Part shown: piece by piece, positions 5,493-7,122 of the stretch
Numbering within the stretch: position 1 is the stretch's first letter
Layout of the letters: each line of letters begins with the position of its first letter
Assembly (NCBI GenBank): GCA_026393535.1
Contig: JAPKZY010000106.1
Coordinates: 62,001 to 126,000, forward strand
DNA length: 64,000 nt
Source: Actinomycetota bacterium
GTDB lineage: Bacteria; Actinomycetota; Acidimicrobiia; Acidimicrobiales; Ilumatobacteraceae
Reading direction: 5' to 3'
Made by a program: the position numbers and the translations under genes
Notes under the pieces: generated by a model
Told to the model about the DNA's origin: nothing
Database searches by the model: none
What the model saw: only the letters and a program-made list of their open reading frames with translations

Positions 5493-5524
5493 ATGGTTGA
5501 CAGTGGGGGAAAGTGGGGTAATCT
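5474..5524 (+). promoter_or_regulatory. mraZ promoter with five MraZ-type TGGNN repeats
   Basis: Five TGG-starting pentamers lie at exact 10-base steps: 5474 TGGTG, 5484 TGGGG, 5494 TGGTT, 5504 TGGGG and 5514 TGGGG. MraZ is known to bind direct TGGGN repeats separated by five bases. A promoter is interleaved: -35 TTGACA (5497-5502), a 16-base spacer holding repeats four and five, and -10 TAATCT (5519-5524). Binding would block RNA polymerase, so autorepression of the dcw cluster is predicted. Confidence 0.85.
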
Positions 5525-5569: not shown

Positions 5570-5986
5570 GTGTTTGTTGGAGTGCACGAGCGGCAGCTCG
5601 ACCCAAAAGGTCGACTCGCGCTCCCTGCTGCATTTCGCCCCCGTCTCGAGCCCCGCTGTTACTTGGCCTTTGGTCGCGATAAGTGCATAGACGTCCTCAC
5701 TGCTGAAGCCTTCGAGCAAGTAGCAGAGGAAATGCTGCAAAAAGTGCGCAGCGGAGAAATGGACCGCAACGAACAGCGCGCACTTGCCGCAAACACCGTC
5801 GAGGTCACCATTGATGCACAAGGTCGAGTGAACCTTGATGAAAAACTTCGCGAATACGCAGGAGTGCAATTGGGCTCACGAGTGATTGTCGCTGGATCCT
5901 TTGATCGTGTCGAAATCTGGGAACCAGATCGCCATGATCGCAACATCAGTTCGGGTACCGAACAAATAGCTGGAGCGGGCGCGTGA
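5570..5986 (+). CDS. mraZ: Transcriptional regulator MraZ
   Basis: 138-residue AbrB-like regulator at the head of the dcw cluster, close to the usual 140-150. It has two copies of the MraZ fold: FVGVHERQLDPKGRLALPA at the N-terminus with the DxxGR signature, and VTIDAQGRVNLDEKLREYA in the second half. The GTG at 5570 is set by the conserved N-terminus and by AGGAAGG (5555-5561) nine bases upstream. It probably represses its own promoter through the repeats at 5474-5518. The stop overlaps an in-frame GTG (5983) that could extend RsmH. Confidence 0.96.
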   Translation: MFVGVHERQLDPKGRLALPAAFRPRLEPRCYLAFGRDKCIDVLTAEAFEQVAEEMLQKVRSGEMDRNEQRALAANTVEVTIDAQGRVNLDEKLREYAGVQLGSRVIVAGSFDRVEIWEPDRHDRNISSGTEQIAGAGA

Positions 5987-6026
5987 TTCCCAATGCTCTT
6001 CAAGTCTTTTCAATCAGTCAGCGGCC

Positions 6027-6150
6027 GACGGTCTCTGGCAGTCTCCCGGATGGCACGGTGGTTAGCTCCAACTCCGCCCGCTACCATCGCGCACATTCCG
6101 GGGATACATCCGGGTGGCAATTGCTTTCCGGGAGGCTGCCAGGGACCGTC
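6027..6150 (+). ncRNA. Structured leader RNA candidate between mraZ and rsmH
   Basis: Bases 6027-6050 pair with 6127-6150 in an unbroken 24-pair stem (22 Watson-Crick, two G-U: 6034/6143 and 6042/6135). After a single T-T mismatch, 6052-6055 pair with 6122-6125. The 66 bases inside can form two hairpins (6057-6062 with 6080-6085; 6098-6101 with 6110-6113), giving a three-way junction. The stem ends 21 bases before the rsmH ATG. No U-run follows, so it is not an intrinsic terminator. A structured 'mraW RNA' upstream of rsmH/mraW is known in some Actinobacteria; whether this is a member needs a covariance-model search. Confidence 0.6.
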
Positions 6151-6171
6151 CGTCATGACACAGGTACCAAC

Positions 6172-7122
6172 ATGAACGCGGTCTTTGCTCATCTGCCAGT
6201 GATGCTGGAGCAGATTACCGATGTCTTTTCTGACATGAACGATGGAGTCTTTCTCGATGCAACTCTTGGTGGTGCCGGACACAGCACAGCAATCTTGACC
6301 GCACACCCCAGAGTCTCATTGCTGGGAATTGACCAAGACGATATGGCTCTTGAATCAGCTGAACAAGTTCTTGCAGCCGCTGGTTGTAGTGGACGCGTTG
6401 CCCTCCGGCGCGCCCGCTTCGATGCAGCGGCGCTAATCGCGGCGAAAGAGGGCATCAGCGCGTTGTCTGGTGCTCTCTTCGACCTCGGTGTCTCGTCTCC
6501 ACAATTCGATGTTGCTGAGCGCGGATTTTCATATCGATTTGATGCGCCGCTCGATATGCGAATGGACCGCTCTCAAACATTGAGTGCAGATATGATTGTA
6601 AATACATACGACGAAGATGCATTAACGAGCATGTTGCGTCGAAACGCAGACGAGCGTCACGCGTACCGTATTGCGAAGGCGATCATCGCTGCGCGTCCGA
6701 TTCACTCCACTAGGCGACTGTCAGACGTTGTGAGTTCAGCAATCCCTGCGCCGGCGCGTCGTCGCGGTGGACATCCGGCGAAACGGTCTTTTCAGGCCAT
6801 CCGCATTGAAGTAAATGCAGAGCTTGAAATTCTTCCAGGCGCTTTGCGGAATGTCATTTCGCTGTTGGCTCCTGGCGCACGATTGGCAGTTCTTTCGTAT
6901 CACTCTGGTGAAGACCGGATTGTCAAGTCTGTGATGAGATCAGCAGAGACGGGCGATTGTGATTGCCCACCAAATCTTCCATGTGGATGCGGTGCTGTGC
7001 GTTCAGTTGTTCGTGTCCGTGCACCTCGTGATGCAAGTAGAGCAGAGTTGGCGCTGAACCCGAGGTCATCTTCGGCGCGGTTGCGTGTCGTTGAGAAAAT
7101 CGCTGTCGAGAGTCAGAACTAA
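6172..7122 (+). CDS. rsmH: 16S rRNA (cytosine-1402-N4)-methyltransferase RsmH
   Basis: SAM-dependent methyltransferase (formerly MraW) acting on C1402 of 16S rRNA in the decoding centre. From the ATG at 6172 it is 316 residues, the usual family length. Seen: the opening HLPVMLEQI, the SAM motif LDATLGGAGHS (about residues 28-38), FDLGVSSPQFDVAERGFS, DMRMDRSQTL, and the C-terminal LAVLSYHSGEDRIVKS. An in-frame GTG at 5983 would add 63 residues, but that stretch is low in conserved features and encodes the stem-forming RNA, so the shorter start is preferred. Cysteine cluster CDCPPNLPCGCG is typical. Confidence 0.95.
   Translation: MNAVFAHLPVMLEQITDVFSDMNDGVFLDATLGGAGHSTAILTAHPRVSLLGIDQDDMALESAEQVLAAAGCSGRVALRRARFDAAALIAAKEGISALSGALFDLGVSSPQFDVAERGFSYRFDAPLDMRMDRSQTLSADMIVNTYDEDALTSMLRRNADERHAYRIAKAIIAARPIHSTRRLSDVVSSAIPAPARRRGGHPAKRSFQAIRIEVNAELEILPGALRNVISLLAPGARLAVLSYHSGEDRIVKSVMRSAETGDCDCPPNLPCGCGAVRSVVRVRAPRDASRAELALNPRSSSARLRVVEKIAVESQN

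Follow-up and report, generated by a model that had tools for sequence, protein, structure and literature searches.

A near-perfect stem that the DNA between mraZ and rsmH (mraW) can form raises the question of which kind of RNA occupies this gap, a member of the known mraW RNA family or a distinct type, and how it may act on rsmH. In the window, which is the whole 64,000-nucleotide stretch of DNA that was analysed, mraZ lies on the + strand at 5570..5986 (138 aa in the list of open reading frames, with a GTG start and its TGA at 5984-5986). The rsmH gene lies on the same strand at 6172..7122, its conserved core beginning at ATG 6172, and protein searches matched it in 58/61 genomes of relatives. 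Refolding of the 185-base gap (5987-6171) reproduced exactly the 24-pair stem with two G-U pairs that the first-pass annotation had described as closing a three-way junction at 6027-6150. Positions 6027-6050 formed uninterrupted pairs with 6127-6150, the only G-U pairs were 6034-6143 and 6042-6135, and the fold, at -89.5 kcal/mol, contained two hairpins within the closing stem. The 5′ arm of this stem (P1) spanned 6017..6050 on the + strand, of which 6017-6025 was a weaker extension. The 3′ arm, placed from the fold and from the start-codon positions in relatives, spanned 6127..6159 (+) and included GGGAGG at 6130-6135 (+), where many class members have their rsmH Shine-Dalgarno sequence. Hairpin 1 (P2, 6056..6089, +) paired 6056-6066 with 6080-6089 and had the loop UCCAACUCCGCCC at 6067-6079, and hairpin 2 (P3, 6091..6118, +), supported by the fold and the alignments, paired 6091-6102 with 6109-6118 around the loop GAUACA.

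The claim that such a stem will not arise by chance was borne out. The fold of 5990-6190 had a free energy of -92.3 kcal/mol (z = -5.7, 0/200 shuffles equally good), and 1000 mononucleotide shuffles of the gap gave no contiguous stem longer than 15 pairs, compared with the 24 observed. The location between mraZ and rsmH was likewise confirmed in the window sequence, in which no U-run was found 3′ of the stem, and a terminator was rejected on this ground. Two further features were observed nearby. A six-codon open reading frame, ATGACACAGGTACCAACATGA (MTQVPT), occupies 6155-6175 and its stop overlaps the ATG at 6172; similar frames are present in near relatives (e.g., L004 and L007), and reinitiation from it into rsmH is possible. 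Upstream of mraZ there are two TGGGG repeats, five bases apart (5504-5518), which resemble MraZ-binding boxes.

The first-pass annotation had let its reading depend on whether homologous gaps lose the pairing or change it without compensation, and the outcome was the opposite. All inspected gaps in the genus of the window kept the stem, the junction and the loop. In an unfitted alignment of 28 diverse sequences, 25/32 pairs had changed on both sides and yet remained paired, and 92.6% of the cells were paired; when the partners were slid by 1-3 columns this dropped to 33-50%, and 0/500 shuffles were as good. A covariance model (R1) was built from this alignment. Among 98 distinct sequences of the class, 30/32 pairs showed double-sided compensating changes in an alignment that was fitted to the covariance model and is hence biased towards it, and in all these figures cells and loci were counted, which are not independent events as relatives have common ancestry. 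Helix 1, in the closing stem, was compensatory in 19/21 pairs and hairpin 1 in 7/7 model pairs.

The covariance model matched 171/247 genomes and 106/124 genera of the class of the window, which is Acidimicrobiia judging by named relatives. The window RsmH shares 95-97% identity with that of records titled Ilumatobacteraceae and Acidimicrobiaceae, and the genome was accordingly taken to belong to a relative of Ilumatobacter. In a sample of 296 genomes of the phylum, the model found the element in 16 genomes, all 16 of the same class, and had no match outside it. The 63 named loci contained 19 places with the element, all of them in records whose titles read Ilumatobacteraceae, Microthrixaceae, Acidimicrobiales, Actinomycetota or the like, apart from some that seem mislabelled, and the Coriobacteriia loci among the 63 had none. 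Three records titled Bifidobacterium breve (L235, L236 and L237) carry the element; their RsmH is 97% identical to that of the window and their titles are probably wrong. The position was as constant as the fold: the MraZ frame, identified by a profile match, ended 3-319 nt upstream of the element in 100/100 loci (3-50 nt in about half), and the RsmH N-terminal motif followed it in 97/100. A single copy was present in the genome of the window and a single place in nearly all other genomes, and second matches, where inspected, came from the complementary strand at that locus or from a duplicate of the contig. We are therefore almost certain that the element is a conserved RNA attached to rsmH. 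That it is a class-wide structured RNA new to Rfam 15 is well supported, and no report of it or of RsmH autoregulation was found in our literature search.

In the genus of the window, an open reading frame crosses the element, which would suit an explanation by something other than RNA, such as a palindromic repeat, a mobile element or protein-coding conservation. In 28/29 genus members, the rsmH frame extended without a stop back to a GTG that shares bases with the mraZ stop (GTGA) and lies just behind a GGAG. In the window this start is GTG 5983, and the possible N-terminal extension of rsmH covers 5983..6171 (+), so that the length of the gap stood as first annotated and its untranslated status became doubtful. 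A single frame was preserved despite length variation on either side of the loop, which had 3 different distances to the GTG and 10 to the RsmH histidine. Substitutions in the two flanks fell on codon positions 1/2/3 in the numbers 42/70/87 and 41/59/57, compared with 337/148/1097 in the rsmH core. One frame thus seems to be kept despite length changes and without amino-acid constraint; the rsmH start has moved in this genus, and to judge from the reading frames the element is likely translated through. A protein-coding basis for its conservation was rejected, as genera outside that of the window have a different frame across the element or meet stops in it, and the flank codon positions are unconstrained. 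A repeat or mobile element is at odds with the single copy in the genome of the window and the single place in nearly all others, and the covarying pairs contradict any explanation other than RNA, which we consider hardly credible.

The mraW RNA (RF01746) has been listed for Actinomycetales (Weinberg et al., 2010; PMC2864571), and the first-pass annotation had allowed for either a member of this family or a distinct type. Membership was judged by the Rfam covariance model at its gathering cut-off of 50 bits. In the window, RF01746 had no match at this cut-off or at E <= 10, and it was above the cut-off in 0/61 genomes of relatives, while the Corynebacterium glutamicum control was detected; at E <= 0.001 it matched in 9/149 genomes of the phylum. 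Conversely, the best score of model R1 against true RF01746 members was 16.9 bits (E 0.037) and lay away from the hairpin. The distinct type was thus upheld and membership was not, on the covariance-model scores and on the fold, a three-way junction.

The apical loop of hairpin 1 is C-rich and near-invariant in the class. Loops of 97 of 100 loci were aligned on the required search motif CUCC(G/A)CC, the three loci without the motif being left out. The motif was preceded by A in 85/97 loops and followed by C and then G in 93/97 and 92/97, which gave a near-invariant core, ACUCCGCCCG, located at 6071..6080 (+) in the window. Among the three loops left out was that of the class member L148, which reads CUUCCCCC and carries CUUCCCC, the signature of the mraW RNA loop. 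Hairpin 2 was less constant, and some families have a short form of about 86-92 nt without it. Kissing between loop 1 and hairpin 2 was therefore rejected as the main function, since several families keep loop 1 without hairpin 2.

Twenty of the class genomes without a match in the wide search were inspected. In eight of them (L187, L188, L190, L191, L192, L194, L202 and L204) mraZ and rsmH abut or overlap, the spacing between mraZ stop and RsmH histidine being 7-26 nt, which leaves no room for the element, as if element and gap had been lost together. Four others have a reduced or altered hairpin (L197, L200, L201 and L203), three have an unrelated gap (L186, L195 and L196), and the rest were not cleanly readable. 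The genomes of one family (f22) that the wide search had missed have one long hairpin with the loop CUCCGCCCUCU (L200 and L201) or CUCCGCCCGCU (L203); a direct search with model R1 recovered L201 and L200, and RF01746 had no match in these collapsed single-hairpin forms.

The position of the rsmH start codon relative to the element was compared among 97 loci. An in-frame rsmH start codon lay exactly at -5 of the model end in 41/97 loci, compared with no more than 11 loci at any other offset within 30 nt, and all 41 had a Shine-Dalgarno-like sequence in the stem. The Shine-Dalgarno sequences of such in-stem starts had a pairing probability near 1. This one fixed place points to control of rsmH translation. 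In the other 56/97 loci, the window included, the start codon was away from the fixed position, so that occlusion of the start is not universal; in these other families, among them the genus of the window, it lies further 3′, often behind a Shine-Dalgarno sequence of its own. By its conserved fold, its fixed position between mraZ and rsmH and the in-stem start in many members, the element is best explained as a class-specific, cis-acting mRNA leader element of rsmH. The cis-acting RNA for rsmH proposed in the first-pass annotation is thus well supported, as the element immediately precedes rsmH and in 41/97 loci includes its start and Shine-Dalgarno sequence, and from this arrangement we infer that it is likely to act in cis on rsmH expression.

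A start downstream of the stem could be accommodated by an effect on mRNA processing or stability. RNase III would cut the stem, or the stem would protect an mRNA end, so that mraZ is uncoupled from rsmH-ftsL, with the loop possibly bound by a processing factor. A stem that is nearly perfect over more than 20 pairs and lies between two genes of an operon would suit RNase III, and processing would also account for the constant mraZ-rsmH position; RNase III, however, needs neither a near-invariant 10-base loop nor a start codon at a fixed place in the stem, and we regard this explanation as rather unlikely. Alternatively, the stem could work without any ligand and hide the start until it is opened by ribosomes leaving mraZ, or by heat. 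In about half of the loci only 3-50 nt separate the mraZ stop from the element, which is consistent with such coupling, as is the arrangement in the genus of the window, with its GTGA overlap, GGAG upstream and open frame into rsmH. Coupling of this kind leaves the near-invariant loop unexplained, and G-C-rich stems of ~20 pairs would be so stable that ordinary growth temperatures should not open them; we consider both versions improbable.

A possible reason for the constancy of the loop was found in the 16S rRNA. At the RsmH site, the 16S rRNA of the class reads GUACACACCGCCCGUCAC, and the loop core is identical in 9/10 bases to its segment ACACCGCCCG, with C6077 aligned to C1402, which RsmH and RsmI methylate (PMC5053481). 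The sole mismatch is a U in the loop where the 16S rRNA has an A (A1398). Within a 6.9-kb 16S-23S stretch, the RsmH target site was the top match of the 10-base core, with 11.6 bits compared with 4.8 for the next, and with wider loop windows it was not ranked first in this stretch. Composition-preserving shuffles matched the site that well in 0.36% (core) and 1.7% (18-mer, any window) of cases, figures that are guides and not tests, since the target was picked after the loop had been seen.

From these sequence comparisons, the best single mechanism in our view is a feedback in which RsmH, by way of substrate mimicry, would repress its own synthesis, a plausible proposal that we put forward tentatively. 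In many members the 3′ arm of the closing stem holds the Shine-Dalgarno sequence and start codon, and the folded state would repress rsmH translation. The loop core, single-stranded and then continuing into a helix from its last G, would mimic the decoding-site strand of the 16S rRNA that contains C1402. RsmH in excess of its ribosomal substrate could then bind the loop, stabilise the stem and lower its own synthesis; in families with the start downstream of the stem, binding would need to work by way of mRNA decay or affect ribosomes that arrive from mraZ. That the ligand would be RsmH itself is the least certain step. E. coli RsmH methylates the 30S subunit and not protein-free 16S rRNA (PMC5053481), so that its binding to a small hairpin cannot simply be assumed. 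The stem could instead be a translational operator for another ligand that reads the loop, such as a ribosomal or assembly protein, RsmI or a small molecule, and the likeness to 16S rRNA would then be due to chance or used by that factor. The conservation of the loop resembles that of a binding site, the stem contains the rsmH start in 41/97 loci, and RsmI modifies the same nucleotide as RsmH (PMC5053481). Set against this, the element occupies one place per genome in nearly all genomes and, among the loci checked, invariably adjoins rsmH, which speaks for the rsmH product as the ligand. We rank feedback by RsmH first as the best single mechanism, followed by another ligand, which appears unlikely, then by processing, and last by ligand-free coupling.

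If RsmH feedback is real, a feedback loop would link rRNA modification with the gene cluster for cell-wall synthesis and division, and the level of an enzyme modifying the decoding site would be tied to the supply of 30S subunits. A structured RNA found class-wide and absent from Rfam 15 can now be set beside mraW RNA, an orphan for which no worked-out function was found in the literature searched, and the likeness of the loop to the RsmH target offers a concrete hypothesis for both.

Compared with this RNA, the element has the same position in the mraZ-rsmH gap directly upstream of rsmH, a long G-C-rich stem and a conserved C-rich apical loop. An alignment of true RF01746 members showed a single hairpin with the apical loop ACUUCCCC, whereas the window element is a three-way junction. 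The loop ACUUCCCC and the loop ACUCCGCC of the element agree in 6/8 positions, and features like those of RF01746 occur inside the class, namely one long hairpin in L200, L201 and L203 and the CUUCCCC loop in L148. As some class members collapse to one hairpin, the two RNAs may be related; loop similarity, position and collapsed forms suggest either kinship or convergence. In the RF01746 loci inspected, the rsmH start lay well downstream of the hairpin. The RF01746 region has been reported to be transcribed in C. glutamicum and Corynebacterium diphtheriae (PMC3890552; PMC5784534), and in the latter the motif lies upstream of the mapped mraW start (PMC5784534).

The proposed mechanism resembles that of autogenous operators. 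In these, an rRNA-binding protein represses its own mRNA, often via an rRNA-like structure at the start site, and translational autoregulation has also been reported for KsgA (RsmA) and ErmC. Among the operators of ribosomal proteins, rpsO in mycobacteria is an example (PMC8470358). The logic proposed here is the same, except that an rRNA methyltransferase would take the part of the binding protein, and the site mimicked would be the one it methylates. The structure that such operators place over the start site is found in 41/97 loci at one position and not in the genus of the window. The likeness to the natural RNA substrate, 9/10 bases at the RsmH site, is rare in shuffles, but it is short and does not rank first with wider windows. 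RsmH could control both its own production and the head of the gene cluster for cell wall and division through a leader that mimics its methylation target in the ribosomal decoding centre, and the actinomycete mraW RNA would be a variant of that switch, a unifying reading that we find possible though doubtful.
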